A stretch of DNA of 29,285 bases from a virus. Location: the IMG/VR virus record IMGVR_UViG_3300025010_000649, positions 1-29,285 of that record; one strand, given 5' to 3'. The stretch's first letter is position 1; each line of letters starts with the position of its first letter. Made by a program: the position numbers and the translations under genes. Shown piece after piece: positions 1,797 through 29,285 of this stretch. The notes under the pieces are model-generated. The model worked only from the letters and a program-made list of their open reading frames with translations, was not told where the DNA came from and did not search any database.

Positions 1797-2047
1797 TAAA
1801 TCCGTTTCCGAAATATTTACTAGTACTTCCGATTAAGGAAGAACAAATGACTTCGGGGGGCATTGCATTGCCTGAAATCTCGCAAGACAAACCGATGAAA
1901 GGCGAAGTTGTCGCTATCGGTGAAAAAATAAAAAATGTAAAAGTTGGGGATATTATTGTGCATAAAAAGTGGATAAATGAAACTTATAAACATGAAGGCA
2001 CAGAATATATATTTGTCAGGAAAGAAGATTTGTTAGCAAAGTTATGA
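1793..2047 (+). CDS. groES: GroES co-chaperonin (phage-borne)
   Basis: At 84 residues it is slightly shorter than a typical 95-residue GroES. It keeps the main features: a first strand ending in LVLPI, a mobile loop around residues 18-28 containing SGGIALP (the hydrophobic triplet that contacts GroEL), a GEVVAIGEKI strand, VKVGD, and a C-terminal EYIFVRKEDLLAKL. It would cap the GroEL ring made from the next gene, which it overlaps by four bases. Phage T4 gp31 is a known phage GroES analogue, but this one is recognisably GroES by sequence. It sits between sugar-modifying genes rather than beside capsid genes. Confidence 0.93.
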   Translation: MINPFPKYLLVLPIKEEQMTSGGIALPEISQDKPMKGEVVAIGEKIKNVKVGDIIVHKKWINETYKHEGTEYIFVRKEDLLAKL

Positions 2048-3624
2048 GCAGATTTCCTATAAAAATTGTCTCTGGAACTAACGCTAGAAAGAAATTGCTG
2101 GAAGGAATAAATATTTTGGCCGATGCAGTTTCTAGCACATTAGGCCCTCGTGGTCGAAATGTGGCTATTAATCAATCAAACGGCGCACCAAGAATAATTC
2201 ATGACGGAGTCGGTGTAGCTTTACGAATTGACTTGTTTAATGAGTTTGAAGATATGGGCGCACAACTCTTAAAAGAGGCGGCTATCAAAACAAACGATAT
2301 CGCAGGAGATGGTACTACAACTGCAACCATACTTGCACAATCGCTAATCAGTAAAGGTTTGGAAGATATTACGGCAGGCAAAAACCCCATGACCTTAAAG
2401 GCCGAGCTTGAAGAAGCTACTAAGTTACTTTTAAAAGAATTAAAGAAATTATCACGTCCTGTTGATAACGACAAGGAGGTTGAGCGTGTAGCTACAATTG
2501 CTTCAGCAAACCCCAAACTTGGTAAGATGGTGGCTAGCGCGATTAAAAAGGTAGGTAAAGACGGAGTGATTGACGTTGAACGGGGTAATAAGGCCGAAAC
2601 TGAAATTGAGTATAAACAAGGCATGGAGATAGACAGGGGCTACAAATCGCCTTATTTTGTAACTAATAAACAGACAGTTGAGGCGGTAGTTGATGATCCT
2701 TACATTCTTCTTACAAATAAAAAGATAAATCACAGCCAACCGGAGTTGGTGCCTTTTATGGAGAAGTTTTTAAAGGTAAGCAAGAACTTAGTAATTATCG
2801 GTGAGGTTGAGGAAGAGGCACTAGCCACTTTAGTTGTTAATAGACTAAAAGGAATATTGAATGTAGTAGCAATTCAACCACCAGCGTTTGGCGACAGGCA
2901 AATAGATGAGTTGGAGGACTTGGCTATATTAACGGGCGGTACTGTAATAAATGTGGATTCAGGTAGAAAACTTGATAGTGTTGAAATTGAAGAATTGGGC
3001 CGTGCTGATAGCGTTAAATCTGATAGGGATAAAACTACAATTCTAGGTGGTAAAGGAAACTCTGCGCTAATTAAAGAATACACTGATAAGTTAAAAGAAC
3101 AGATTAAGAGAGGTAACACCGAATATGATACAGGAATTAAAAAGCAACGATTGGCTAAAATGATGGGTGGGGTTGCAATAATTAAAGTAGGTGGGATTAC
3201 CGAAGTTGAGCTGGATGACAAACGGGAACGCGTTATAGACGCTGTTAGAAGCGCGCAGGCATCAATTGAGGAGGGAATAGTAGCAGGAGGGCAGGTAGCT
3301 TATTTGGTGCTCTCACAAGGCGACTGGTGGCCTGATACTTTGGGTGCTCAAATACTGCGTGAGGCTATCAAGAAGCCATTTAAAATCTTAATGGAGAATA
3401 CGGGTTATGACTACGCCGAGGCATTAGGTAAAATAACACCGATTGAGTACCCCAAAGCGATAGATGTAATGGATGGAGAGGTTAAGGATATGATTGAGGC
3501 AGGAGTAATTGATTCAGCATTAGTAGCTAAAAGTGCGGTAGAAAACGCGGTAAGTGTGGCGGGGATGGCTTGGACGCTTTCTTGTATGATTAGTGAACCC
3601 TATCAGAATAAGGAAACAAAATGA
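2044..3624 (+). CDS. groEL: GroEL chaperonin (phage-borne)
   Basis: At 526 residues this is close to full-length GroEL (about 545). The N-terminal equatorial domain has TLGPRGRNV (about 32-40) and the nucleotide-binding NDIAGDGTTT (about 84-93), with Asp89 matching the catalytic Asp of bacterial GroEL. The apical domain (about 180-370) has PPAFGDRQ, and the C-terminal equatorial part keeps RVIDAV and EEGIVAGG. The usual third Gly of VAGGG is replaced by Gln, and the flexible Gly-Gly-Met tail is absent; the protein ends in a charged tail. It folds client proteins inside a double ring with the GroES encoded just upstream. Clients may include phage virion or glycosyltransferase proteins (inference). 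Confidence 0.96.
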   Translation: MSRFPIKIVSGTNARKKLLEGINILADAVSSTLGPRGRNVAINQSNGAPRIIHDGVGVALRIDLFNEFEDMGAQLLKEAAIKTNDIAGDGTTTATILAQSLISKGLEDITAGKNPMTLKAELEEATKLLLKELKKLSRPVDNDKEVERVATIASANPKLGKMVASAIKKVGKDGVIDVERGNKAETEIEYKQGMEIDRGYKSPYFVTNKQTVEAVVDDPYILLTNKKINHSQPELVPFMEKFLKVSKNLVIIGEVEEEALATLVVNRLKGILNVVAIQPPAFGDRQIDELEDLAILTGGTVINVDSGRKLDSVEIEELGRADSVKSDRDKTTILGGKGNSALIKEYTDKLKEQIKRGNTEYDTGIKKQRLAKMMGGVAIIKVGGITEVELDDKRERVIDAVRSAQASIEEGIVAGGQVAYLVLSQGDWWPDTLGAQILREAIKKPFKILMENTGYDYAEALGKITPIEYPKAIDVMDGEVKDMIEAGVIDSALVAKSAVENAVSVAGMAWTLSCMISEPYQNKETK

Positions 3625-4370
3625 AAAGAAAACCCGTAGTTTGCTTTACCATTGCCGATCACAATAATGTTAAGTGGGCGTTAATGCTTGAAAAGAGCCT
3701 GAGAAAATTCCACACTAAACAGGAGCTTCCCTTAGAGATAATAGCGGGGCACATTCTTGACAATGCTCTAAAACAAGATAGTCAATTTTTCTATCGAGCG
3801 AAACCAGTTGTTGCCAGTCAACTAATTGAAAATTACGAAGTTGTAATCGGAGCAGATGCCGATAGTATTATCACCGCGCCGATTAACGAAGCGTGGGAGG
3901 GGGATTTTGACGTTAAACTGGTTTTAAATAGTAATCCACGAGAACACAAAGCATATCCTGTTGGCGTGTGGGACATTGACCCCATACACGAATACGTTAA
4001 TTGTGGCTTTGTGTCTATGCGCTCAAAAGAGTTCGTTGACCATTGGCACAGGCTTTGCTATTCACCAAGATTTGAAAGATATCCCATGCGGGAGCAGGAT
4101 TTTTTAAACATAATAGTTCACTATGGAAACTATAACTGTCAGTTATTAGAGAATACTGATCAGTTTTGGGGTTTAAGTTCAAAGGGGTATTGGGCTGATA
4201 TCAAGTTAGACAAAGATAAATTAATTTTACCCGCTAATGATGAATGGAATAAAAACGATAGGATAATTCGCGTTATCCATTGGGGTGGCGGCAACGATCC
4301 AAATAAAATGAATTTCAATACACGATTCCAGCCTGAAGTGGCTAAGTTTCTAAATGATTTAGTTAAATGA
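3621..4370 (+). CDS. GT8-like/GT-A fold glycosyltransferase
   Basis: This 249-residue protein begins with VVCFTIADHNNVKWA, typical of the first strand of GT-A glycosyltransferases. It has a metal/nucleotide-sugar-binding DXD motif as DAD (79-81) within VVIGADADSII. NCGFVSMRS near 127-135 resembles the acceptor-side motif of GT8-type enzymes, and a late VIHWGGG supplies a His as in that group. It overlaps GroEL upstream and the GT4-like gene downstream by four bases each. It probably transfers a sugar from an NDP-sugar in the cytoplasm. Donor and acceptor cannot be read from the sequence; a virion protein or host glycan are both possible. Confidence 0.75.
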   Translation: MKRKPVVCFTIADHNNVKWALMLEKSLRKFHTKQELPLEIIAGHILDNALKQDSQFFYRAKPVVASQLIENYEVVIGADADSIITAPINEAWEGDFDVKLVLNSNPREHKAYPVGVWDIDPIHEYVNCGFVSMRSKEFVDHWHRLCYSPRFERYPMREQDFLNIIVHYGNYNCQLLENTDQFWGLSSKGYWADIKLDKDKLILPANDEWNKNDRIIRVIHWGGGNDPNKMNFNTRFQPEVAKFLNDLVK

Positions 4371-6469
4371 AAAGACGTGACTTAAAAATAATATGGCACA
4401 GTAATAGCGTAAATGTTAATAGTGGTTACGCAACCTTTAGTAGGGATTTATTATTTAGGTTACTCAGGGATGGCTGGAATGTGGCAAATATAGGCTTTTT
4501 CGGAGTGGAAGGATATCACACATTTATGAATGGTGAAGATCTTATTGACGATAGATTTAAAGGATTAAAATTAAAGGTTTATCCTAAAATGAACGACCCT
4601 TACGGATCGGATGCTTTAGTTAGCCATTCAGCAGATTTCGGCGCTCATGTTGCTTTTGCGATGTTGGATATCTGGACGATTCAACCGCAAGCACTTCAAG
4701 AATTAAATAACAATGGAACTAAATTCATACCATACTTACCGATTGACCAAGAACCTATTTACACACCGATATTAAGTAATTTAAACCATGCTTATAAGAT
4801 AATTACTTTCGCGAAATACGGCCAGAAACAACTTCAGAATGCGGGATATACTTCAACTTTAATCTTAGAAGGAGTGGATACTGAGATATTTAAACCAATG
4901 GATAAAGCAGAATGTAGAAAAGAGCTTGACTTACCGCAAGAGAATTTCTTTTTTGGAATGATAGGTGCTAATAAAGAAAATCCGCCAAGAAAGGGTTATC
5001 AAGAGGCTATTGAGGCTTTTAAAATGTTTTTAGACAAACATCCAGAGGCGAGAATGTTTTTCCACACTCAACAAGTTGCGCCAGGAGGCTTTCCCATACT
5101 TGAGTTTGGTAAGTATCTTAATATCCACGACAAGATGTACTTTTTAAATCCTTATAAGAGTTCTTTTGCGTCAGACTCACACAAGATAGCGAGAGAAATA
5201 AACACTTTTGATATTCTTCTACACCCTTCACAAACCGAAGGCTTTGGACTTTTACCGGTTGAAGCTCAGTCGTGTTTTCCTGAAGAGATTAAAGTTTCTA
5301 TGGATAATATATTATCTGGACAAGTAAGAAAATTTACTGGTGAGTTGGTTGAAATAAAAACCAGCAGAGGAACCATCAGGTCAACACCAGAACATCCGTT
5401 CTATACAGATAATGGGTGGGTTAAAGCGGGAGAATTGACCAAAGAGTATCACCTATTGTATAATAACGAACATGACAAGAGGGGCGTTTACAAAGGAAGA
5501 ATCAAGGAGGTTTTTGAGTCTCTATCGAGAACATACACTAGAGGAAGTGGCAAGAATCATGAACAGGACATACAGTTCAGTTCTATGGCACAAAAAAAAG
5601 GCGGGCTATCGAAAAACAATGAAAGAGAGATTGAAAATGAAAAAAGTAAAGCTAACAAAGATAGATTTGTCGTATTTAGCGGGGATGATAGACGGAGACG
5701 GCCAAGTCACAATAAGAAAAATGAGTGGTGGGAAATGGAAACCCTTAATATCAATAACAAACGATTCAGAAACATTGATGAATTGGTTAAGACAAAAAAT
5801 ACCAACGAAATCTTCCTATATAGAAAAAAGGGGGTTGAGGGAAAATGGTCAAATGGGTTATTTGTTTCATATAACAGGGATTTCTTATCTCAATTTTTTC
5901 AAGGATATTTTGCCTTATCTGGTGATAAAAAAAGAGAGATTGAAACTAGTAATCAAATGGACAGAAATGAGACTAAAACAAGGAAACAACGAACCAGCAA
6001 ATTCAGAGAAATTTCTAACGATAGTGAAAACGATAAGGCATTTGAACTCGTCAAAATTGAGAGCATACAAAGAAGTACAGTAAAAAATCTGCTAGTTTAT
6101 AATTTTACAACAAATAGCAATGTTTATCTGGCAAACGGGTATCTCGTTCATAATTGTGGAGTCCCGCCGATTGTAAATAATTGCCACTCACAACCTGAGA
6201 TGATAATTGATGGCAAAACGGGTGAGATTTGCGAAATAGGTAAAGGTTGGTTTAGAAATATGAGCGCTTATGTTTATCCCGCTGACGTTAATTCTTTATA
6301 CGACAAAATGGAAACTTTATACGCTAAAGTAAAAGACGAAAAAACAAGAAAGCAGATCGCCAAAGACGCCAGACAAAATGTACTAGATAATTACAATATC
6401 GAAAAAGTGGCCGATAAATTCATTAGTTTCTTGGAAACTTTACAAGACGAGATTCTTCCTATAAAATAA
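4367..6469 (+). CDS. GT4-type glycosyltransferase interrupted by an in-frame intein
   Basis: The 700-residue product consists of two extein parts around a 294-residue intein. Extein N (1-302) starts with HSNSVNVNSGYATFSRDLL, the Gly-rich donor-site start of GT4 enzymes. It continues through FFGMIGANKENPPRKGYQEA and ends in PSQTEGFGLLPVEAQS, the E-x7-E motif (Glu291, Glu299). Extein C starts at Cys597 with CGVPPIVNN. Joined together, EAQSCGVPPIV is the normal unbroken GT4 active-site segment, so the host protein should be about 406 residues after splicing. Without splicing the active site is broken. It is the last gene of the cassette and is followed by a terminator. Confidence 0.88.
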   Translation: MKRRDLKIIWHSNSVNVNSGYATFSRDLLFRLLRDGWNVANIGFFGVEGYHTFMNGEDLIDDRFKGLKLKVYPKMNDPYGSDALVSHSADFGAHVAFAMLDIWTIQPQALQELNNNGTKFIPYLPIDQEPIYTPILSNLNHAYKIITFAKYGQKQLQNAGYTSTLILEGVDTEIFKPMDKAECRKELDLPQENFFFGMIGANKENPPRKGYQEAIEAFKMFLDKHPEARMFFHTQQVAPGGFPILEFGKYLNIHDKMYFLNPYKSSFASDSHKIAREINTFDILLHPSQTEGFGLLPVEAQSCFPEEIKVSMDNILSGQVRKFTGELVEIKTSRGTIRSTPEHPFYTDNGWVKAGELTKEYHLLYNNEHDKRGVYKGRIKEVFESLSRTYTRGSGKNHEQDIQFSSMAQKKGGLSKNNEREIENEKSKANKDRFVVFSGDDRRRRPSHNKKNEWWEMETLNINNKRFRNIDELVKTKNTNEIFLYRKKGVEGKWSNGLFVSYNRDFLSQFFQGYFALSGDKKREIETSNQMDRNETKTRKQRTSKFREISNDSENDKAFELVKIESIQRSTVKNLLVYNFTTNSNVYLANGYLVHNCGVPPIVNNCHSQPEMIIDGKTGEICEIGKGWFRNMSAYVYPADVNSLYDKMETLYAKVKDEKTRKQIAKDARQNVLDNYNIEKVADKFISFLETLQDEILPIK
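5273..6154 (+). mobile_element. Intein (294 residues) in the GT4 gene, with an out-of-frame endonuclease gene
   Basis: The element starts at Cys303 of the host protein. Block A is CFPEEIKVSM, block B contains TPEHPFYT (the Thr-x-x-His motif), and WVKAGEL follows. The C-terminal splicing half begins near FELVKIESI and includes LLVYNFTTNSNVYLANG and LVHN, ending in the His-Asn pair followed by the +1 Cys (codon 6155-6157). All expected splicing residues are present, so it is probably active. Between the halves, roughly 200 in-frame codons form a hydrophilic, low-complexity-looking region rather than an endonuclease. The +1 frame of the same DNA encodes a LAGLIDADG endonuclease. Confidence 0.9.
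5472..6083 (+). CDS. LAGLIDADG homing endonuclease encoded in the +1 frame inside the intein
   Basis: This 203-residue ORF lies wholly within the intein DNA but one base out of frame with it. Residues 5-47 look like a SANT/helix-turn-helix DNA-binding domain (FTKEESRRFLSLY, then EEVARIMNRTYSSVLWHKK). Residues 69-77 are LAGMIDGDG, a clear LAGLIDADG motif, followed by ISITNDSE and FFKDILPYLVIKKERLKL, typical of single-motif enzymes that act as dimers. The frame is open only from 5439, and ATG 5472 is the first usual start. No good ribosome-binding site is visible, so it may need translational coupling, frameshifting or an internal transcript. The last part (about 6049-6083) overlaps the C-terminal splicing domain. 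Confidence 0.82.
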   Translation: MTRGAFTKEESRRFLSLYREHTLEEVARIMNRTYSSVLWHKKKAGYRKTMKERLKMKKVKLTKIDLSYLAGMIDGDGQVTIRKMSGGKWKPLISITNDSETLMNWLRQKIPTKSSYIEKRGLRENGQMGYLFHITGISYLNFFKDILPYLVIKKERLKLVIKWTEMRLKQGNNEPANSEKFLTIVKTIRHLNSSKLRAYKEVQ

Positions 6470-8599: not shown

Positions 8600-9109
8600 A
8601 TGTCGTTTAAAAAAGGAAAACTAAATATAAATTGGAAGGGCGGTAAGCCAAATTGTTTAGATTGTGGAAAAAAATTAGCAAGTAGACAATCTAAAAGATG
8701 TAATTCTTGTGGACAAAAAGGTAAGAACAATTCTGGTAAGGGGAAAAATAGTCATAAGTGGAAGGGTGAAAATGCTAGATATGAAACAAAACACCAATGG
8801 CTATACAACAATTTTGGACAACCAAACTTTTGTGAAGCATGTGGAGCAGATAATGCGTCGATATTTGATTGGGCTAATATAAGTGGGGAATATAAAAGAG
8901 ATAAAAAAGACTGGATAAGATTATGTAGGATGTGTCACTGGAAGTATGACAATAAAACAAAGTTATATTCTTATATGGGAATACAAGATGGTTTGACTAA
9001 CTGGTCAAAATATTTCGGTATTAAAAGAAGCACACTATATATGAGAGTAGAAAAATATAATTGGGACATGGGAAAAGCATTACATACATCAGTGGAAGGG
9101 GGGAATTAA
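8600..9109 (+). CDS. Free-standing HNH-type endonuclease with zinc-finger N-terminus (paralogue 1)
   Basis: This 169-residue protein starts with a four-Cys zinc ribbon (CLDC near 19-22, CNSC near 34-37), then a Lys-rich segment. The core contains FCEACG, FDWANISGEYKRDKKDW and LCRMCH, matching the Cys-x-x-Cys and Cys-x-x-Cys-His pattern of HNH-like nucleases, and ends with WSKYFGIKRSTLYMRV, a helix-turn-helix-like tail. It shares this core with the genes at 14808 and 16183. It is wedged between two virion genes with no visible ribosome-binding site. It probably acts as a selfish homing nuclease rather than in virion assembly. Confidence 0.8.
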   Translation: MSFKKGKLNINWKGGKPNCLDCGKKLASRQSKRCNSCGQKGKNNSGKGKNSHKWKGENARYETKHQWLYNNFGQPNFCEACGADNASIFDWANISGEYKRDKKDWIRLCRMCHWKYDNKTKLYSYMGIQDGLTNWSKYFGIKRSTLYMRVEKYNWDMGKALHTSVEGGN

Positions 9110-14807: not shown

Positions 14808-15218
14808 ATGAATAATTCAAAAAAATTTGTGCTAATAACAGGTGAAAAGAATGTTAACTGGAAAGGTAAAAATGTTGGCTATGGTACATTACATAAATGG
14901 GTTGAAAGAAGGCTCGGAATATCGGGTACTTGTGAAGGTTGTGATAAAAGAAAATTAAGCGGCCATCAAATACATTGGGCAAACTTATCCGGAAAGTATA
15001 AAAGAGATACAAACGATTGGAAAAGGCTTTGTGCTTCTTGTCATGCTTTACATGACGGCCGAAGTAAAAAAATTTACTACAAAGGTATTGAAGATTCTCC
15101 ATCTAATTGGTCTAAGTTTTTGAAAATGAAAAGACGCATCCTTTGTTCAAGAATCTATAAATACAATTGGGACATAGAAAAAGCCTTTTTTACACCGATA
15201 AGAACCCATAATTATTAA
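14808..15218 (+). CDS. Free-standing HNH-type endonuclease (paralogue 2)
   Basis: This 136-residue protein lacks the N-terminal zinc ribbon of its paralogue at 8600 but keeps the core: CEGCDKRK, HWANLSGKYKRDTNDW and LCASCHALH, then WSKFLKMKRRILCSRI as a DNA-binding tail. The Cys-x-x-Cys and Cys-x-x-Cys-His pattern and the WANLSGKYKRD block are the same as in the genes at 8600 and 16183. It lies between the ejection-like gene and the XhlA-like gene. The ATG has no obvious ribosome-binding site. It is probably a selfish homing nuclease. Confidence 0.78.
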   Translation: MNNSKKFVLITGEKNVNWKGKNVGYGTLHKWVERRLGISGTCEGCDKRKLSGHQIHWANLSGKYKRDTNDWKRLCASCHALHDGRSKKIYYKGIEDSPSNWSKFLKMKRRILCSRIYKYNWDIEKAFFTPIRTHNY

Positions 15219-15555: not shown

Positions 15556-16190
15556 TGACAAGACAACAATTAAGTAAAAGGGTTGACGACTTTATAAAAA
15601 AGTATTCGGGTAAAACCAAAGGCTACCCGATAGACTCTAGTTTTAATGGAGAGTGCCTTTCTATTGTCAAACTCTATATTCAAGAAGTGTTTGGAATTAA
15701 CGCCCCTCCAAGCGGCTCTAATTCAGCTTACGGCTATTGGGCAAACTTTCCCAGCCCGTTACCGACAATATTTAACAAAGTACAAAATACCCTTATGGGA
15801 GTTCCTAGAAAGGGCGACATACCTATTTGGAATACAAGTGCTGGAGGAGGGTTCGGACATATTGCGATATTTACTTCAGGTGATGTAAACGCTTTTACCA
15901 GCTTTGACCAGAATTGGAATGGCAGACAAGCACACCTGCAACCTCATGATTATACGAACATAGTTGGTTGGTTAGAGCCAAAGTTAGACAAAAATGCTAC
16001 AATTCCACCAGAAGAAGATATGCCAATTAATGACCAAACTTTGATTCACATAGGTGGCGACTTTGGGATTTTAGAAGTACAGGCGATACGTTCTTTACTT
16101 TCTGATATGAAAAGAGATTTAGATAATACAAAAAAGGAACTCCAGGAAATAAAAAATGAAATTGATTTGATTTACAAAGACCATGTGTAA
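15555..16190 (+). CDS. CHAP-domain endolysin
   Basis: This 211-residue protein has an N-terminal CHAP domain. The catalytic Cys is Cys34 in NGECLSIVKLYIQEVFG, and the catalytic His is His102 in FGHIAIFTSG, followed by FDQNWNG. CHAP enzymes cleave peptidoglycan as amidases or peptidases. The last roughly 55 residues leave the CHAP fold and become a coiled-coil-like tail, VQAIRSLLSDMKRDL onward. That tail overlaps the HNH gene at 16183 by eight bases. A closely similar segment starts the protein at 16697, so the lysin's original C-terminal tail may have been cut by the endonuclease insertion. Confidence 0.88.
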   Translation: MTRQQLSKRVDDFIKKYSGKTKGYPIDSSFNGECLSIVKLYIQEVFGINAPPSGSNSAYGYWANFPSPLPTIFNKVQNTLMGVPRKGDIPIWNTSAGGGFGHIAIFTSGDVNAFTSFDQNWNGRQAHLQPHDYTNIVGWLEPKLDKNATIPPEEDMPINDQTLIHIGGDFGILEVQAIRSLLSDMKRDLDNTKKELQEIKNEIDLIYKDHV

Positions 16191-16710
16191 TTGCATAAAC
16201 CATGTCCAAAAATCTTGTAAAACTTGTGGTGAGAAGTTCGAGGTTTGCAAATCAATGGTCAGTAGAAGATTCACTTGTAGTAGAGAGTGTAGAAAAATGC
16301 CAGAACACGTTAAGGAGGCAATTATAAAAGCTAATACGGGGAGAATCCCCTGGAATAAAGGAATGAGGGGTTGGCAATCCAATAATGCACTAGGGGAATG
16401 GAGAGAAGCTGGGGGAACTCTCAAGGGTAGAAAAGTTCCTTGGATGGAAGGTAAAAATAATCCAAAATGGACAGGCAGATATCCTAAATATAGCACTTTA
16501 CATACGTGGATAAGGAATAAAATGGGCAAAGCCAAATTTTGTGTAGTTTGTGGAGAAAAGGAGAAGAACTTTGAATGGGCCAATTTATCTGGCAAATACA
16601 AGAGAGATGAGAAAGACTTTATATCATTGTGTGTAAAATGCCACCGACTTTGGGATTCTAATCGTTTGCCCATAAATTTAATGGAATGGAGGGAACGTGT
16701 CTACGCTTGA
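16183..16710 (+). CDS. Free-standing HNH-type endonuclease with zinc-finger N-terminus (paralogue 3)
   Basis: This 175-residue protein starts with two Cys pairs (CKTCGEKF near 12-19 and CSRECR near 32-37), followed by a Lys/Arg-rich NUMOD-like region. The core has FCVVCGEKEKNFEWANLSGKYKRDEKDF and LCVKCHRLW, shared with the genes at 8600 and 14808. It overlaps the end of the lysin and the start of the coiled-coil gene at 16697, so it sits exactly between two pieces of similar coiled-coil sequence. It is probably a selfish endonuclease inserted into the lysin locus. Confidence 0.8.
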   Translation: MCNCINHVQKSCKTCGEKFEVCKSMVSRRFTCSRECRKMPEHVKEAIIKANTGRIPWNKGMRGWQSNNALGEWREAGGTLKGRKVPWMEGKNNPKWTGRYPKYSTLHTWIRNKMGKAKFCVVCGEKEKNFEWANLSGKYKRDEKDFISLCVKCHRLWDSNRLPINLMEWRERVYA

Positions 16711-17513: not shown

Positions 17514-18014
17514 ATGAAAACAATTCCATTAACACAAGGATACTTCACGAAAGTTGATAATGAGGACTACGAAAAATTTGCTTCAATAAGATGGCATGCG
17601 GCCTTTGGTGCAGATAGTAAACCAAGAGCATGCAGAAAAACAGATTTAAATGGCAAAAAGGTAACACAACACCTCTCTCGTGTAATAATGGAAGCAAAAA
17701 AGGGAACTAATGTAGATCATATTAACCATGATACATTAGATAATAGAAAATCAAATTTGCGATTTTGTAATCCAAGCGAAAATCAAGCAAATATGATTAA
17801 ACCAAAAAACAATACTTCAGGATATAAAGGTGTTTGCTGGAATAAAATGGCTCACAAATGGCAAGTTAATATCTGTAAAGATTGTAAAAGATATTATTTT
17901 GGACTTCATAAATCGAAGAAAAAAGCAGCCAGAGTTTATGATGATGCTGCAATTAAGATGTTTGGAGAATTTGCAAAGTTAAACTTCCCTAAAAGAAAAA
18001 GTCCAGACAATTAA
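17514..18014 (+). CDS. AP2-HNH homing endonuclease
   Basis: This 166-residue protein has an HNH part with VDHINHDTLDNRKSNLRFC (about 64-82), including the His and Asn of the HNH motif. A complete AP2-like DNA-binding domain follows, from SGYKGVCWNKMAHKWQ to AKLNFPKR. Both are typical of phage free-standing homing endonucleases. It is led by a near-leaderless promoter and its stop lies in the loop of a hairpin terminator, so it looks like a self-contained expression unit. Unlike its relative at 23520 it keeps the normal end of the AP2 domain. Confidence 0.85.
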   Translation: MKTIPLTQGYFTKVDNEDYEKFASIRWHAAFGADSKPRACRKTDLNGKKVTQHLSRVIMEAKKGTNVDHINHDTLDNRKSNLRFCNPSENQANMIKPKNNTSGYKGVCWNKMAHKWQVNICKDCKRYYFGLHKSKKKAARVYDDAAIKMFGEFAKLNFPKRKSPDN

Positions 18015-18170: not shown

Positions 18171-18944
18171 ATGTCTATTTTACCCCAAAAGAGCAACAAA
18201 CTTCAACAGCCACTTAGGTTAAAAGCAATTATTACCTCAGTTAGAAGCCGGACATACTTTTCTAAGTGTATGACTTGTGGTAAAAAATTCTCCTATTTTC
18301 CAAGCAATCATACGGGCAAATATTGCTCAAAACAGTGTTGCTATAAATCATCGGAGTGGAAAATTAAACAGAGACTTGCAAAAATTGGCAGAAGACATTC
18401 TTTAAAAACACGATTGAAAATGAGTTTGGCTAAAAAAGGAAGAATGTTTTCAAATGAACACAAAAAGAATTTATCTTTATCGCAGAAAGGAACACAAAGA
18501 TTAACAATAAGAGGAAAAAATCATTGGAATTGGAAAGACGGAAAAACCGAAAAACTTAGAGGGACTAGAAGAGGGAGAAAATTTAGAGTATGGAGAACTG
18601 GTGTTTTATTGCGAGACAATTATGCTTGTATTTTTTGTGGAAGTAAAAAAAATATTTGTGTAGACCACATTGTTCCATTTGCCTCGATCTTATATGAAGC
18701 AAATATATTAAAAACAGATGGCGCCTTATATAGTATTAACAATGGTAGAACTCTTTGTAAAAAATGTCATTTAGCAACGCCGACTTATAATTCAAAACTA
18801 GAAAATCAAACAGAATATAAATACATGTTTTTATTAGAAAAACTATGGAAACAAACTAAAAGTAATGATATAGAATTTGAAACTTTTTATCGCCAGCAAA
18901 CCGAGAGGTTTATTGATATTATAAAGGAGAAATTACATGAATGA
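18171..18944 (+). CDS. HNH endonuclease with zinc-finger and NUMOD3-like motifs
   Basis: This 257-residue protein starts with a Cys-rich ribbon (CMTCGKKF near 34-41, CSKQCC near 55-60). A NUMOD3-like DNA-contact region follows (KIGRRHSLKTRLKMSLAKKG). The catalytic part has LLRDNYACIFCGSKKNICVD, then DHIVPF and LCKKCHLATPTY, which is a full HNH motif with two Cys pairs. The order of ribbon, NUMOD3 repeats and HNH is that of free-standing homing endonucleases. It overlaps the next gene by eight bases. Its target is unknown. Confidence 0.85.
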   Translation: MSILPQKSNKLQQPLRLKAIITSVRSRTYFSKCMTCGKKFSYFPSNHTGKYCSKQCCYKSSEWKIKQRLAKIGRRHSLKTRLKMSLAKKGRMFSNEHKKNLSLSQKGTQRLTIRGKNHWNWKDGKTEKLRGTRRGRKFRVWRTGVLLRDNYACIFCGSKKNICVDHIVPFASILYEANILKTDGALYSINNGRTLCKKCHLATPTYNSKLENQTEYKYMFLLEKLWKQTKSNDIEFETFYRQQTERFIDIIKEKLHE

Positions 18945-22960: not shown

Positions 22961-23160
22961 AAATTAAGACAGAAGAGCTTACACAAATAAAGAAAACTAA
23001 AAGTGTCGAAATTGACGCAAACGAAAACTTGGTTCTTATAAGGATGGTTGATTCCGGCCAAACCATAACCATACCAGTGTCCAAAGTGTTTCAGGTTCAT
23101 CGAGGGTTAATCAGCTATATTCAAAAATACTATCGTAAACATGCTAAGAAAACCAAGTAG
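22957..23160 (+). CDS. Small basic protein between annealing protein and NinG
   Basis: This 67-residue protein overlaps the previous gene by four bases and the next by twenty. It is strand-rich in the middle (NLVLIRMVDSGQTITIPVSK) and ends in a basic helix (RGLISYIQKYYRKHAKKTK). Its place in the recombination operon suggests a single-stranded DNA or recombination accessory factor. No family was recognised. Confidence 0.5.
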   Translation: MKIKTEELTQIKKTKSVEIDANENLVLIRMVDSGQTITIPVSKVFQVHRGLISYIQKYYRKHAKKTK

Positions 23161-23542
23161 AAAAGGACTTATAACCAAGTTAGACGAATTAGTAAGCAAG
23201 ATCGTACGTTTACAAGAAAAAGAATGCGTAATTTGTCACTCTAAAGAAAAATTAGGCAATAGTCATTTATTCAGTAGAAAGAATTTAAGTCTAAGGTGGG
23301 ACATCAGACCAAATGGAAATTGTCATACTAATTGTTGGGGTTGTAATTTCCGGCATTCGAGTAGAGACTCATATCCATATTTTAACTGGTACATTACAAA
23401 GTTCGGTAAAGATAAATTCGATGAATTACACGCCGAATGGGTTGGGGTTAGTATTATAAAGCAGTTTCAGCTAGAGTTACTTCGAGACAACTTACGGGTG
23501 GTTTTAGAACAAATGCAAAATGAGGAAAATAAAACTTACTAA
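23141..23542 (+). CDS. ninG: NinG-like recombination nuclease, C-terminus altered by insertion
   Basis: This 133-residue protein has the NinG/Rap layout: ECVICHSKEKLGNSHLFSR (Cys29, Cys32, His42), then RWDIRPNGN and CHTNCWGCN (Cys65, Cys68), and Tyr/Phe-rich YPYFNWYITKFGKDKFDELH. The family has HNH-like zinc pairs and acts on recombination structures. Residues 107-125 (KQFQLELLRDNLRVVLEQM) closely match residues 142-160 of the endonuclease encoded from 23520. The last seven residues read through that gene's start, so the original end of NinG was probably replaced by the insertion. Confidence 0.78.
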   Translation: MLRKPSRKGLITKLDELVSKIVRLQEKECVICHSKEKLGNSHLFSRKNLSLRWDIRPNGNCHTNCWGCNFRHSSRDSYPYFNWYITKFGKDKFDELHAEWVGVSIIKQFQLELLRDNLRVVLEQMQNEENKTY

Positions 23543-24014
23543 AAATAAAGTTGCATTAGTTGATGATAAAAACTATCAATGGTTATCAGAGTTTAAGTGG
23601 TCTTTCGATGGAAGATACGCAGTTAGGGCTACTTATCGTAAAAACGTATACACAAAAATATATATGCATCGTTTGATACTAAAGGTACCAGTTGGTTGTG
23701 AAGTAGATCATATAAATAGAAATAAACTGGACAATAGAAGTTCTAATTTGAGAATGGTTACGAGAAGTCAAAACTCATTTAATAAGCCATTACTTAAAAG
23801 TAATACATCTGGTTACACTGGTATTCGGTGGCATAAACAGGCAAAAAGATGGCAAGCATATATAAATGTAAATTACAAACAATACTCACTTGGTCTTTTT
23901 ACTAATATTCTATTAGCAAATCGAAAACGAGAAGGTTTAGTTAAGCAATTTCAACTTGAATTATTAAAAGATAATTTAACTGCAATTTTAAAAGAATTAG
24001 AGTCTGCCGGCTAA
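23520..24014 (+). CDS. AP2-HNH endonuclease fused to a duplicated NinG tail
   Basis: This 164-residue protein has an HNH part, EVDHINRNKLDNRSSNLRMV (about 61-80), and an AP2 domain starting at SGYTGIRWHKQAKRWQAY. Where the AP2 domain should finish, it instead ends in KQFQLELLKDNLTAILKEL (142-160) plus ESAG. That tail matches the NinG C-terminus (12 of 19 aligned residues identical), while the codons differ at many third positions. It starts inside the end of NinG (23-base overlap). It appears to be an endonuclease that inserted near the end of ninG and carries the displaced tail, fused in frame. Confidence 0.82.
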   Translation: MRKIKLTKNKVALVDDKNYQWLSEFKWSFDGRYAVRATYRKNVYTKIYMHRLILKVPVGCEVDHINRNKLDNRSSNLRMVTRSQNSFNKPLLKSNTSGYTGIRWHKQAKRWQAYINVNYKQYSLGLFTNILLANRKREGLVKQFQLELLKDNLTAILKELESAG

Positions 24015-25601: not shown

Positions 25602-26057
25602 ATGAAAATAGAAACGCTTGCTCAACATTGTATAGATGCGATTAAGAGTGGAAATAAAATAATAGTTTGTGGTAATGGAGGTAGTGCAGCCCAAAGTCAG
25701 CATTTTGTCGCAGAGCTTGTTGGTAAATATCAACACGAAAGAAGGGCTCTACCAGCATTATCTTTGACTGTAGATACAAGTATTCTGACTTCAATAGCAA
25801 ACGACTTCAGCTTTGAAATGGTATTTGTGAGGCAACTAGAGGCACTGGGTAAAAAGGGAGATGTTTTTATAGGAATATCAACTTCGGGGAAATCTAGAAA
25901 CATTAATTTAGCCTTAGATTGGGCAAGGAAAAACGGTTTAGTAGTTTGTGACTTTGAACGAGCGGGCGACTCGACAACCGAAATTCAGGAAAACCAGTTG
26001 GTCGCACTTCACGAAGTTGCGGAGATTATTGAAAACTATTTCGTTAACAATAAATAA
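25602..26057 (+). CDS. gmhA: Sedoheptulose-7-phosphate isomerase (SIS domain)
   Basis: This 151-residue protein has the full GmhA signature: CGNGGSAAQSQHFVAELVGK (about 23-42), TVDTSILTSIANDFSFEMVF (about 56-75), GDVFIGISTSGKSRNI (about 86-101), and HEVAEIIENYF with the late His (His137). GmhA converts sedoheptulose-7-phosphate into heptose-7-phosphate. It is shorter than usual (about 190) but keeps the phosphate-binding Ser and the catalytic region. It opens a sugar operon with the HAD, kinase, nucleotidyltransferase, epimerase and transketolase genes. Confidence 0.93.
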   Translation: MKIETLAQHCIDAIKSGNKIIVCGNGGSAAQSQHFVAELVGKYQHERRALPALSLTVDTSILTSIANDFSFEMVFVRQLEALGKKGDVFIGISTSGKSRNINLALDWARKNGLVVCDFERAGDSTTEIQENQLVALHEVAEIIENYFVNNK

Positions 26058-26058
26058 C

Positions 26059-26163
26059 ATGGGATTTAAAATTAATAAATCTAGGGAAAAAACCGCAAGA
26101 TTTTGTTCTGGAGAATGTAGATTGAGTTGGTTCAGTGGTTTAAATAGGAGGGCATTTATATGA
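26059..26163 (+). CDS. Small peptide with a Cys-rich motif
   Basis: This 34-residue frame overlaps the HAD gene by four bases (ATGA). It reads KINKSREKTARFCSGECRLSW and a short tail; CSGEC looks like half a zinc finger, as seen in HNH proteins. It may be a small gene or the leftover end of an endonuclease. Confidence 0.3.
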   Translation: MGFKINKSREKTARFCSGECRLSWFSGLNRRAFI

Positions 26164-26426
26164 ATATTTGTTTCGATACTGATGAGTGTTTGGTTGATGG
26201 CGGCAAACCAATACCGGCGAATGTTGAACTTTTAAAATTATTATCCAAAACACACAAAGTGTTTATATGGTCGGGAAATGGTTTTGTCCACGCTTTTGAT
26301 GTCGCAAAAAAACTTTACTTATTAGAAGTAATTAGTGGTGTATTGAATAAATATTCGACATTTGTCCCAGAGATAGCGTTTGACAACCAAGAAATAGATT
26401 TAGGCAAAGTAAACATAAAGCTATGA
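26160..26426 (+). CDS. Short HAD-like phosphatase
   Basis: This 88-residue protein has an N-terminal CFDTDECLVD (motif I, Asp6 and Asp8), then VFIWSGNGF (motif II region, with Ser), and EIAFDNQEID near the end (motif IV-like). It lacks a clear cap domain and is about half the size of GmhB. Between GmhA and the kinase it could serve as the phosphatase of the heptose pathway, but this is an inference. It overlaps its neighbours by four bases on each side. Confidence 0.65.
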   Translation: MNICFDTDECLVDGGKPIPANVELLKLLSKTHKVFIWSGNGFVHAFDVAKKLYLLEVISGVLNKYSTFVPEIAFDNQEIDLGKVNIKL

Positions 26427-27340
26427 AATATTTGTGTGAGGCTCCAGTCAGAATTAGTTTATTTGGATCGGGAAGTGATGTTGGAGAATACGCATCTAAA
26501 TATGGCGGTGTTTGTATAAATATGGCGATAAATATAAGGCAAAGGTTTATTTTAGGAGATGATGAAAAAGTAGATTTTGGTTATTTAGAGAATACCAATC
26601 CTAAATTTTATGAGGCATTTTTTAAAGAGATTTATAGACCAAACTACTTTTTACAAGAGTTTGATGGATTTATACATAGCGGTTTAGGCACATCAGCATC
26701 AGCCGCGGTTTGTTTGGTGGCCGGACTATCTAAATTAAAAGGAGAAAAACTAATAAGGTACGAAATAGCTGAGAAGGCATGGGATATAGAGGTCAATAAG
26801 TTAAATTTATTCGGAGGTAAGCAGGATCAATTTTGTGCGACATTTGGCGGGTTTAATTTAATGAAATTCAATGATAGGGTTGAGATACAAAGTATTCATA
26901 GAGAAGTGGCAGAAAAAGTCACAGAGAATTTATTATTGTTTGATACAAGGATAAGACGCAAAAACCCCAAACTTCAGGAGAATCTAAAAACAATATCTAG
27001 TGGGCAAAAACAAGCACTTGATATAATTAAGAACCTAGCAAATGATGCTTACCACAGAATTTATAAAGGCGATATAAAAGGATTAGGCAAATTATTAGAC
27101 GATACATGGAGATACAAAAAGCAAAGCAACAATGTGACCACGCCGGAAATTGACACAATCTATTACAAAGCAAGAGATTTAGGTGCTTATGGGGGTAAAT
27201 TGTGCGGTTCAGGAGGTGGAGGTTACATGGTATTTATAGTTCCTATGGAAAAACAAGAATACTTTAAAAACCAAATAGGTCTTGAATGGGTAGATCATGG
27301 TGGTATAGATTGGAATGGAGCAACAACACGATTTATATGA
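26423..27340 (+). CDS. hddA: GHMP sugar kinase, HddA-like (heptose-7-phosphate kinase)
   Basis: This 305-residue protein is a GHMP kinase. It starts with CEAPVRISLFGSGSDVGEY, has the ATP-binding loop GLGTSASAA (87-95), and the C-terminal motif GGKLCGSGGGGYMVF (about 258-272). HddA-type enzymes phosphorylate heptose-7-phosphate at C1 for later nucleotide coupling. It is in a run with GmhA and the HddC-like gene, which supports the assignment; other sugar kinases are possible. It overlaps the HAD gene and the next gene by four bases each. Confidence 0.88.
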   Translation: MKYLCEAPVRISLFGSGSDVGEYASKYGGVCINMAINIRQRFILGDDEKVDFGYLENTNPKFYEAFFKEIYRPNYFLQEFDGFIHSGLGTSASAAVCLVAGLSKLKGEKLIRYEIAEKAWDIEVNKLNLFGGKQDQFCATFGGFNLMKFNDRVEIQSIHREVAEKVTENLLLFDTRIRRKNPKLQENLKTISSGQKQALDIIKNLANDAYHRIYKGDIKGLGKLLDDTWRYKKQSNNVTTPEIDTIYYKARDLGAYGGKLCGSGGGGYMVFIVPMEKQEYFKNQIGLEWVDHGGIDWNGATTRFI

Positions 27341-27882
27341 AGGCTTTGATTTTATCGGCGGGGAGAGGTACACGGCTTGGCAAATTAACAAAAGAAATAC
27401 CAAAGCCGATGATAACTGTGGGCAATTACCCTGTATTAGAACATTTAGTTTTTCACCTATCAAAGTTCGGCATTACACAGATTATGGTAAACTTACATTA
27501 CAAACCCGAAGTTATTATGAATTACTTTGGTACAGGACTTCTTTACTCTTACGAACCGACGCTTCTCGGCGAGGAGGGAACAATACAATCACTTAAACAC
27601 TGGTTATTTACCGATTACACGGTAGTTATGAATGGCGATACATTAACTGATATAGATATTGGTCAAATGTTCAGGTGGTCGCAAGGTAAAAATATAATTA
27701 GTATGGACGGAAATATTTATACTGGTACAAAAATAATAAGTCCAAGATACTTTTTTGGCGAGAAAGAATTTGTCAAATATTATGATCCTACTATGTATTG
27801 GAAAGATATAGGTACTTTTTCTGGCCTAAAGTCGGCTAGAGATTATTATGAAAAAATTCATAATTTATCTGCAAGCAATTAA
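27337..27882 (+). CDS. hddC: Nucleotidyltransferase, HddC-like, compact
   Basis: This 181-residue protein starts with ALILSAGRGTRLGKLTKEIP, the nucleotide-binding signature (G-x-G-T-R and PKPM), continues to VVMNGDTLTDID (metal Asp), and ends with MYWKDIGTFSGLKSARDYY, the family's closing motif. It is shorter than usual HddC (about 230) because the central part is missing some strands. It would attach NMP, probably GMP, to heptose-1-phosphate. ATG 27337 overlaps the kinase stop (ATGA); an earlier frame start would run far into the kinase. Confidence 0.85.
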   Translation: MKALILSAGRGTRLGKLTKEIPKPMITVGNYPVLEHLVFHLSKFGITQIMVNLHYKPEVIMNYFGTGLLYSYEPTLLGEEGTIQSLKHWLFTDYTVVMNGDTLTDIDIGQMFRWSQGKNIISMDGNIYTGTKIISPRYFFGEKEFVKYYDPTMYWKDIGTFSGLKSARDYYEKIHNLSASN

Positions 27883-28233
27883 ATGAAGAAGTTTATTATT
27901 TGTTCTACTTGCGAGGTGAGCGGTCAAGAAAATGCAAAAGATGTAATGCTTCGCTCAAGAATGGGCGATAAATATTTATCGTTAAAAATGAGGGGCGGTA
28001 TTGAGTTACTTGGTGAAATACGTGATGACGGCACAATTCTAGTTAAAAGAGGTAATGATAGGTATACGGTAATACAAGGTAGTGAATTTACAATACTCTG
28101 TTCAAGATGTTGTCAACCAGTTTTTAGAAGGGAGGTAAATGGAACGCTACAAATCAGCGAGTACCGGTTCGCATGGGCTGTTGGGGGAAGCCTTAGTCAG
28201 TCGGTTGGAACAAGCGAACAACAAAGTATTTAG
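27883..28233 (+). CDS. Zinc-ribbon protein of unknown function
   Basis: This 116-residue frame has CSTC (7-10) and CSRC (73-76), forming a split zinc ribbon around a beta-rich middle (LSLKMRGGIELLGEIRDDG). It starts directly after the HddC-like gene. The last 31 residues lie over the start of the SDR gene in another frame and look unlike the rest. Its natural end may be shorter, or an indel may have extended it. The function is unknown. Confidence 0.5.
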   Translation: MKKFIICSTCEVSGQENAKDVMLRSRMGDKYLSLKMRGGIELLGEIRDDGTILVKRGNDRYTVIQGSEFTILCSRCCQPVFRREVNGTLQISEYRFAWAVGGSLSQSVGTSEQQSI

Positions 28234-28927
28234 ATTGGGTAGGGATGGTGTTATACCTGAAGGTCTAAATGTTGTATTTGATTGTGCCGCATTCGGTAAT
28301 CTAGCAGGCCATAGGGGTGATCCTAAAGAAATATACAAAGCTAATCTGATGAGAGTGATAACCGAAATGGATTACCTGGATGATAAAACGAAGTATATCT
28401 ACATAAGCTCAAGTTCTGTTGCAAGGCCGACTCAAATTACTTACTCATTAAGCAAAAAGGCCGCCGAAGAATTTTTGCAGATACAAGATAAAAAGATAGC
28501 AATAGTTAGGCCGTTTAGCATGACAGGTATAGGCGACCAGCCCGAACACTTAATTCCTACGCTTATTAGATCTTGTTTAAAAGGCGAGGAAATGCCATTT
28601 GTACCAGAGCCTCACCACGACTACATAGATGTGGATGATGTTGTGGATGCTTTGTTGATAATTGCGGATAAAGGATTATTTGAAGGCGAGGTATATCAAG
28701 TAGGCAGAGGCAAAAGCTACTCAAATCAAGAGGTAAGAGAAATGGTTGAAAATGCAACGGGTAAGAAAGCCAATGTACAATTAGTAGAGAGCATGAGGTC
28801 ATACGACAGCACGGATTGGGTAAGCGATAACACAAGAATATGGAGTTTGGGCTGGAAGATAACTAAATCACTCGAACAAACTATTCAGGAAATGGTGAAT
28901 TATGCACGAAAGAATATTACAGATTAG
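28139..28927 (+). CDS. SDR-family NAD-dependent sugar epimerase/dehydratase
   Basis: This 262-residue protein starts at ATG 28139 after a GGAGGT site. It has the nucleotide-binding loop STGSHGLLGEAL (about 8-19, TGxxGxxG), then VVFDCAAF, the catalytic YSLSK (Tyr102, Lys106) and YISSSS. The C-terminal part includes DYIDVDDVVDALL and YQVGRGKSYSNQEV, typical of extended SDR sugar enzymes. Its place after the nucleotidyltransferase suggests it acts on an NDP-heptose or another NDP-sugar. It overlaps the previous gene by 95 bases. Confidence 0.85.
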   Translation: MERYKSASTGSHGLLGEALVSRLEQANNKVFRLGRDGVIPEGLNVVFDCAAFGNLAGHRGDPKEIYKANLMRVITEMDYLDDKTKYIYISSSSVARPTQITYSLSKKAAEEFLQIQDKKIAIVRPFSMTGIGDQPEHLIPTLIRSCLKGEEMPFVPEPHHDYIDVDDVVDALLIIADKGLFEGEVYQVGRGKSYSNQEVREMVENATGKKANVQLVESMRSYDSTDWVSDNTRIWSLGWKITKSLEQTIQEMVNYARKNITD

Positions 28928-29285
28928 TAAGGATGAACAGTTAAGCCACGTGGGTAGTTGTCTTGGCATGGCTAAAGTTCTTGAGGAGATTTATCAAATT
29001 AAACAACCAGAGGATATCGTTATCCTAGACGCTGGCCATGCACATTTGGCACACTTGGTAGCTCAAGAGAAATATGAAGACAAAGAAATCAAACTACCAT
29101 TGCATGATATCCACTGTAATTTAGAGGATGGGTGTGAGGTGGCAACGGGCAGTTTAGGAAGCGGGGCGGTGATAAGCCTGGGCAGGGCAGTAGGCAACCC
29201 CGATAGAGATGTTTATTTGGTTCTTTCAGACGGCGGGGCTATGGAGGGGTCGGTTTGGGAAGCGTTAAGACTAAGGACTGACTTG
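28902..29285 (+). CDS. Transketolase, N-terminal TPP-binding part (cut by window end)
   Basis: From ATG 28902 the frame is open to the window edge (128 codons), starting inside the end of the SDR gene. It reads ILQISKDEQLSHVGSCLGMA, then DAGHAHLAHLVAQEKY, CEVATGSLGSGAVISLGRAV, and VYLVLSDGGAMEGSVWEAL. The last is the thiamine-pyrophosphate-binding GDG-type motif, and SLGSG is the partner motif. It is the N-half of a transketolase, which can make sedoheptulose-7-phosphate, the substrate of GmhA in this operon. Confidence 0.85.
   Translation, partial: MHERILQISKDEQLSHVGSCLGMAKVLEEIYQIKQPEDIVILDAGHAHLAHLVAQEKYEDKEIKLPLHDIHCNLEDGCEVATGSLGSGAVISLGRAVGNPDRDVYLVLSDGGAMEGSVWEALRLRTDL

Follow-up and report, generated by a model that had tools for sequence, protein, structure and literature searches.

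An intein in a viral GT4 glycosyltransferase gene and its relatives with a LAGLIDADG endonuclease encoded in the +1 frame

The intein and the overlapping endonuclease gene

The window, meaning the whole stretch of DNA analysed here, is the 29,285-bp virus record IMGVR_UViG_3300025010_000649. At 4367-6469 (+ strand) it carries an open reading frame (ORF) of 700 aa, one continuous frame with zero stops, which encodes a GT4 glycosyltransferase (Pfam Glycos_transf_1, E=5.8e-11) containing an intein. A second ORF, for a homing endonuclease (HE), lies within the intein DNA. The initial annotation had placed the HE gene at 5472-6083 in the +1 frame of the long ORF; these coordinates are right and both ORFs are open. 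The features are listed in Table 1.

Table 1. Features of the intein-containing GT4 gene in the window (AF2, AlphaFold2; HTH, helix-turn-helix; pLDDT, predicted local distance difference test score)
Feature	Position	Strand	Basis
N-extein, GT4 glycosyltransferase, ending ..EGFGLLPVEAQS	4367..5272	+	Pfam Glycos_transf_1; intein-free GT4s uninterrupted there
Intein N-terminal splicing block (Cys1, TPEH, ..LLYN)	5273..5464	+	PF14890; AF2 block-mean pLDDT 75-95
Promoter-like site TTGACC-18-TATAAT, 11/12 match, ending 7 nt before the HE ATG	5435..5464	+	Sequence; function putative
HE ORF, +1 frame, 203 aa, HTH-like helices (aa 8-44) and a single LAGLIDADG domain; stop 6081-6083	5472..6083	+	Pfam, PHROG, AF2, Foldseek, PDB profile
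Intein-frame reading of the HE DNA, intein aa 88-254	5534..6034	+	Stop-free, hydrophilic, pLDDT <50
LAGMIDGDG motif of the HE	5676..5702	+	Asp74 invariant in 10/10 loci
Dual-coded segment, last ~14 HE codons including the stop, overlapping where the C-terminal splicing strand begins	6041..6083	+	Family frames, identity test, AF2 models
Intein C-terminal splicing block (..VYNFTTNSNVYLANGYLVHN)	6041..6154	+	Splice residues, AF2, PF14890
C-extein, remainder of GT4, beginning at Cys+1 (CGVPP)	6155..6469	+	ORF reading; intein-free GT4 comparison

The intein (5273-6154, 294 aa) lies between EAQS and CGVPP, and Cys1, TPEH, LVHN and Cys+1, which contain the residues with roles in splicing, are present. 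The insertion site is empty in the intein-free phage GT4s of Mae-JY09 and phiPsal1, where EAQA/CG (the slash marking the insertion point) is read straight through. The intein splicing domain PF14890 matched the long ORF at E=1.5e-9, above the cut-off, and the intein alone at E=5.2e-11, and the intein profile matched the NrdJ-1 intein at E=8e-13. The earlier claim that the splicing halves stay in one open frame through the HE gene therefore holds, with 0 stops and PF14890 found on the long ORF. The host gene is one unbroken ORF, not two as in a fractured gene with a split intein.

In the AF2 model of the intein frame, only the splicing halves are confident (block means mostly 75-96), and intein aa 88-254, ~167 low-confidence residues, are read as a modelled disordered linker between the folded halves. 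Foldseek placed mini-inteins best, with a top E of 3e-3 and none <=0.001, a weak result because the model is mostly disordered. The stretch over the HE consists to 73 % of D/E/K/R/N/Q/S/T/G/P/H and gave no match up to E=0.1 in Pfam or PHROG. It had been described as low-complexity and hydrophilic; the second term is apt, given this composition and the very low model confidence, while the first was used loosely.

The HE matched Pfam LAGLIDADG_3 (E=5e-4, 20.7 bits) and phrog_5046 (E=5.8e-16). Its AF2 model, based on ten sequences, has a pLDDT of 88.9, the best Foldseek matches of the fold are I-CreI (E=5e-8), and a profile search of PDB matched I-MsoI and I-CreI chains. The initial identification of an HTH plus LAGMIDGDG endonuclease is thus borne out by LAGLIDADG_3, PHROG 5046 and the AF2/Foldseek likeness to I-CreI. 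The reported overlap of the HE end with the C-terminal splicing block is also real and extends over ~14 codons. Residues 197-203, the sole run of >=3 HE residues with pLDDT <50, lie where the C-terminal splicing strand (intein residues 257-280) begins; the two codes would thus be superposed with little conflict.

A family of loci with the same frame relation

Relatives were recovered by similarity searches with the intein and with the HE (HE searches of 80, 80 and 8 rows, with contigs partly shared). Among the matches listed, 57 loci were examined, weaker rows being outside this count. Ten of the 57 are overprinted inteins, including L177, on a contig identical to the window. At least nine further distinct loci were found, namely L018/L179, L019/L097, L178, L180, L181, L182, L183, L184 (identical to L185 and holding the L092 intein) and L237. 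L237 is from a Bathyarchaeota metagenome-assembled genome (MAG) and its host gene encodes a DUF5131 protein; the host gene of L183 encodes a DUF2201 metallopeptidase/VWA protein. The other seven relatives have GT4-like host genes, all with Pfam glycosyltransferase group 1 (best E per protein <=2e-4). Comparison shows that at least ten loci, with host genes of three kinds, share the predicted arrangement.

In all ten loci, the HE frame is +1 relative to the intein frame, with the HE start codon at intein codon 65-95 and the HE stop 8-28 aa short of the end of the intein. The window HE is 26-36 % identical to those of the nine relatives (19-50 % among the ten), and 14 alignment columns are invariant throughout, including Y68, A70, G71, I73, D74 and G77 of the motif. 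We take Asp74 to be the catalytic residue. LAGLIDADG_3 was detected in eight of the ten HEs, and PF14890 in eight of the ten inteins, each at E up to 0.1. Cys1, His41 and the terminal HN are present in every intein; position 38 is Thr in eight and Ser in two, and the +1 residue is Cys in nine and Ser in one. The identities of the HEs and of the splicing domains correlate over the ten (Mantel r=0.56, P=0.006). As the loci are related, they represent one old arrangement kept by selection and not ten origins. In L018, a match to the Rfam int-alpA RNA (2063-2126, + strand, 41.3 bits) lies upstream of the GT4 gene.

The ten best rows of the viral-contig HE search, ranked on HE similarity alone, are all overprinted (L185 via its identity to L184). 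An ORF with intein motifs in another frame was found in none of the other 47 loci examined (best of these E=4e-13). L240, which has a 194-aa +1 ORF without intein motifs, was excluded from the count. When viral sequences were scanned with the ten-member HE alignment, the best rows held only contigs already known, and a plasmid search with the HE gave no match. The initial annotation had named in-frame fusion of the endonuclease in related inteins as evidence that would speak against it; a simple motif test flagged no such fusion of this HE family among the 57 relatives.

The other contrary finding that it named was a pair of sequencing or assembly indels, one at each end, that shift an ordinary in-frame HE out of frame. 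All ten loci come from metagenomic virus contigs or a MAG, not from sequenced isolates, and the identical second contig of the window virus may share reads with it, which lend this some support. However, the same +1 relation recurs in the nine loci with 26-36 % HE identity to the window, and the intein frame is stop-free in all ten, which speaks against an indel pair because it should leave stops there. This explanation is untenable and its probability negligible. The comparison of sequences confirms a conserved family of inteins with a predicted +1 overprinted HTH-LAGLIDADG endonuclease, not an assembly error.

HE genes in other frames are common in introns, and removal at the RNA level by a group I or group II intron, with the intein-like frame incidental, could on that ground account for the arrangement. 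However, neither the window nor any of the nine related loci has a match to an Rfam intron family at the gathering score, while the splicing domain is found in eight of the ten, the splice residues are kept and the frame is stop-free. We regard an RNA intron as extremely improbable.

Constraint on the two frames and expression of the endonuclease

The likelihood that the intein frame is open by chance was assessed by fixing the HE protein and redrawing its codons 20,000 times from the usage of the host gene or of the HE itself. The window intein frame has 0 stops, compared with means of 19.7 (host usage) and 9.9 (HE usage) expected, and 0/20,000 recodings were stop-free under either usage. All ten intein frames have 0 stops, compared with means of 6.0-20.6 (host usage) and 6.1-12.9 (HE usage), and the stop-free fraction per locus was 0 to 0.00095 with host usage and at most 0.001 with HE usage. 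The third frame, used as a control, contains 36 stops in the window and 9-36 over the ten loci. None of 32 other HE relatives is open in the corresponding frame (3-28 stops each). These 32 were drawn from the other 47 loci, leaving out L106, L107, L110, L111, L194, L197, L202, L204 and L238-L244, and some of their HEs are antisense to another ORF and not free-standing.

Pairs of the ten loci have a mean identity of 0.326 in the HE and of 0.171 in the intein-frame middle. As the latter is near the level obtained by recoding with stops forbidden (0.147-0.149, sd 0.003), most of the likeness in the intein frame is a shadow of HE conservation. The recurrent DRRRG/DRWRG of this frame is, by reading, GLIDGEG one base off. 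Nonetheless, 0/60 simulations with either usage reached 0.171, a point against a middle that is purely shadow. This small excess could come from codons shared by descent or from some additional constraint acting on the loop. In the C-terminal overlap, pair identity is 0.194, compared with 0.131-0.136 when recoded (0/60 and 1/60 simulations as high), based on at most about a dozen residues per pair (6-12 in printed rows). The HE could also be a decaying passenger, its open +1 frame a relic and the intein alone working. This is difficult to reconcile with the better conservation of the HE frame (mean pair identity 0.33 vs 0.17 for the intein-frame middle) or with the 14 columns, motif residues included, that are invariant in all ten, and we judge it highly improbable.

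The promoter-like site listed in Table 1 is the best of five in the region, with the Tyr-Asn codons of LLYN forming its TATAAT. TATAAT is found at the same 7-nt distance in L018 and L180, and TATACT in L019. In L181 and L178, TATAAT/TATACT is at the same codons and the ATG is farther downstream, after AGGAGGT or GAGGGG. Hence, all six LLYN-type members have TATAAT/TATACT at Tyr-Asn/Tyr-Thr codons, with a joint probability of ~1e-6 under host codon usage, to which the window and L181 add little because they are AT-rich. When the intein protein was fixed, the summed promoter score was 80, compared with 70.7 for recoded sequences (sd 2.3; P=0.0003, post hoc), and 0/4,000 recodings had a summed -10 score over the ten as high. 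A Shine-Dalgarno (SD) sequence as the common start signal was rejected, as the sum over the ten was no higher than with synonymous recoding (P=0.14). SD-like sites are present in some members, AGGAGGT 4 nt before the ATG in L181, GAGG in L178 and AGGA in L182.

Several observations count against use of the promoter-like site. Five such sites in the region is no excess over the shuffled mean of 4.5, and single-locus P values are mostly unremarkable (0.007-1.0; window 0.07). Both promoter tests were designed after the window site had been seen, the six members were chosen by eye and, as the loci are related, the summed scores are not independent. A good match is absent in four of the ten (L182, L183, L184 and L237), and no SD-like site precedes the window HE ATG. 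Because the tests were post hoc and four loci lack the site, expression from the internal promoter is graded as likely only. We lean slightly towards separate expression of the HE from such a promoter, with a leaderless message in the window. The initial proposal that HE production is separated from splicing stands for the anatomy, namely the HE's own putative ATG and promoter-like site, and the production itself is presumed.

A programmed +1 frameshift from the intein frame, giving an intein-N/HE fusion ending at 6083, would be in keeping with the constant frame relation and with the window HE ATG that no SD-like site precedes. However, the HE frame is open for only 33 nt upstream of this ATG, so that a shift site would have to fall within 11 codons at most. 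Every member has an ATG immediately ahead of the HTH, and by our reading this ATG is preceded by a promoter-like or SD-like site in seven of the ten. No shared slippery sequence was seen on inspection by eye, and we consider a frameshift unlikely.

The element is thus very probably a phage GT4 mobile intein with its HE overprinted in the +1 frame as a gene of its own. The splicing halves and exteins form one frame with the predicted splice residues, stop-free through the HE gene, and by sequence and model the +1 frame encodes an I-CreI-like HE with an N-terminal HTH. The HE would be translated from its own ATG, with a probable promoter inside the N-terminal splicing block, on an mRNA that would be leaderless in the window and have a short leader with SD-like sites in some relatives. 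The long-frame precursor would splice, and the excised intein would keep a disordered loop that is mainly a shadow of the HE gene. The HE would cut intein-free GT4 alleles at EAQ(A/S)/CG, and repair would copy the intein in. Inteins normally have an in-frame HE domain, which couples HE production to splicing; with the steps proposed here, the two would be on different proteins and probably on different transcripts. That the arrangement is kept in distant relatives suggests spreading and self-removal by separate products.

There are also points that weigh against this reading. Only the window, L182, L183 and L237 have PF14890 scores above the curated cut-off, and L178 and L180 gave no PF14890 match up to E=0.01. 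The Pfam scores of the window HE are below the curated cut-offs (20.7 vs 22.5 bits for LAGLIDADG_3). The ten include no close but different pair (L184 and L185 being the same), and hence no two-frame dN/dS. An I-CreI-like homodimer might favour a pseudo-palindromic target, but the insertion site showed no such signal in the ten loci.

The superposed HE/intein family is a natural source of dual-coded genes in which constraint is clearly divided: the models put a folded HE over predicted disorder in the intein frame and a splicing strand over a predicted disordered HE tail. The timing of HE production, decay in the homing cycle and the origin of overlapping genes become testable with this family, and annotation can hide endonucleases inside large intein-bearing ORFs.

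The virus record, other overprinted ORFs and known systems

The window is identical over 10,267 bp to the IMG/VR contig IMGVR_UViG_3300002223_000004, which is possibly from the same reads. As this 43-kb contig extends further upstream, the window is probably a fragment. Apparent sugar-activation genes (by eye, a sugar isomerase, kinase, nucleotidyltransferase and epimerase) are found in a row at 25602-29285, consistent with the GT4 belonging to a glycosylation set. The window also contains virus-encoded tandem genes for a GroES-like protein (1793-2047, by eye) and GroEL (2044-3624, Cpn60 E=4e-53), and free-standing HNH-like genes (by eye) at 8600-9109, 14808-15218, 16183-16710, 17514-18014, 18171-18944, 23141-23542 and 23520-24014. 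Of three of these that were scanned, only 17514-18014 had matches, to HNH_3 and AP2.

Short phage inteins of this type were surveyed at 80 loci, 71 of them distinct. The query alignment included members of the antisense class, so the survey is not an estimate of frequency. The host genes of annotated phages among the first relatives are MuF-like or minor head genes, or in some portal genes. An antisense ORF of >=180 aa is present in 57 of the 71 distinct loci (L020-L094; e.g. L030:3028-3777, - strand), and the best antisense ORF is codon-aligned in 58 of the 61 loci with any antisense ORF counted. In GC-rich DNA, chance often leaves an antisense frame open, so the evidence here is domain content and not openness. 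In an alignment of 55 of the 57 ORFs (L039 and L078, apparent near-copies of L034 and L063, were omitted), one Asp and one Glu are invariant. The Pfam MTES_1575 restriction-like nuclease was found in 33 of the 55 at E <=0.01, and many of the ORFs match HTH families. The antisense profile finds PDB 3hrl (E=6e-7) and 3r3p (E=8e-4, listed as 'mobile intron protein'), the latter presumably I-Bth0305I. By reading, the sense motif DFHGDG and the nuclease sequence SVAVEV mirror each other in codon alignment.

In the Gordonia phages Nordenberg (L004, 2486-3565, - strand) and SchottB (L005, 2522-3106 in locus orientation), a LAGLIDADG-like ORF is antisense to an intein in a MuF gene with the sense frame open. 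The tblastn matches behind this call are weak (E=1e-3 to 3e-3), and a FIDGEG motif is its other basis. Pfam found nothing in the Nordenberg antisense ORF, and the MuF-intein genes are annotated merely as head morphogenesis or minor capsid protein. A second kind of +1 overprinted intein ORF, at L024:3053-3808 (+), has a cysteine-rich N-terminus (by eye) and a DUF559/MTES_1575 nuclease. At five further loci, L101, L103, L190, L192 and L197 (~2000-3600, - strand), a LAGLIDADG HE is antisense to an ORF of 300-480 aa. No Rfam intron reached the gathering score at these loci and Pfam found nothing in the five ORFs, of which the three translated (L103, L197 and L192) appear to run on into capsid-like sequence.

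From these sequences, overprinting may be general to viral inteins, with LAGLIDADG and PD-(D/E)xK HEs over mini-inteins, either +1 or codon-aligned antisense, and with promoters inside the splicing-domain code, though we put this at somewhat less than an even chance. If true, the timing and dose of the HE would be freed from the host gene, so that the HE could, for example, act early against a co-infecting genome even where the host gene is a late one, and the spliced intein would be left with a disordered loop that is mainly a shadow of the HE gene.

In canonical inteins, the HE is in frame with the splicing halves (e.g. PI-SceI). The window element resembles canonical LAGLIDADG inteins in that a LAGLIDADG HE lies between blocks B and F, flanked by the splicing halves. 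The fold and profile matches of the window HE are to I-CreI and I-MsoI; by its entry title, however, I-CreI is the endonuclease of a group I intron, whereas the window HE has an additional N-terminal HTH and is in an intein. Split inteins in fractured genes, with an I-Bth0305I-type HE whose gene splits the host gene between the intein halves, were reportedly described by Dassa in 2009 and Taylor in 2011. They share with the window an HE that is unfused to the splicing halves, but the window host frame is continuous and overlaps the HE. Mycobacteriophage TerL inteins have two LAGLIDADG motifs (PMC5050341). In contrast to these and to canonical inteins, the window HE has a single motif in a shifted frame and would be a separate product.

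Among the matches listed, PMC11855218 was the only literature on the theme, in a search with most subscription journals and bioRxiv outside its coverage. This paper (Arsenault, Gosselin and Gogarten 2025) describes the ShiLan domain, an out-of-frame HNH endonuclease insertion in a phage methylase, without splicing domains. As in the window, a phage gene has an insertion that carries the HE in a different forward frame, the host frame is open throughout and there is no detectable ribosome binding site, for which its authors suggest leaderless initiation. The ShiLan HE, as described there, is HNH without detectable splicing domains, whereas the window has an intein splicing domain around an I-CreI-like LAGLIDADG HE with an HTH, preceded by a promoter-like site. 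The initial description of the window element as an unusual mobile element is therefore fair, but the window virus is not alone in having the arrangement, and insertions of an out-of-frame HE in phage genes have been published before (PMC11855218). The same paper cites a preprint on non-canonical actinophage inteins (bioRxiv 10.1101/2025.01.02.630785) for frequent overlapping frames in actinophages. Because it is cited for these, the preprint may describe overlapping HEs in inteins and hold priority for them. The family described here comes instead from metagenomic virus contigs and one archaeal MAG. The window element would work like a mobile intein, and is outside the canonical in-frame class.

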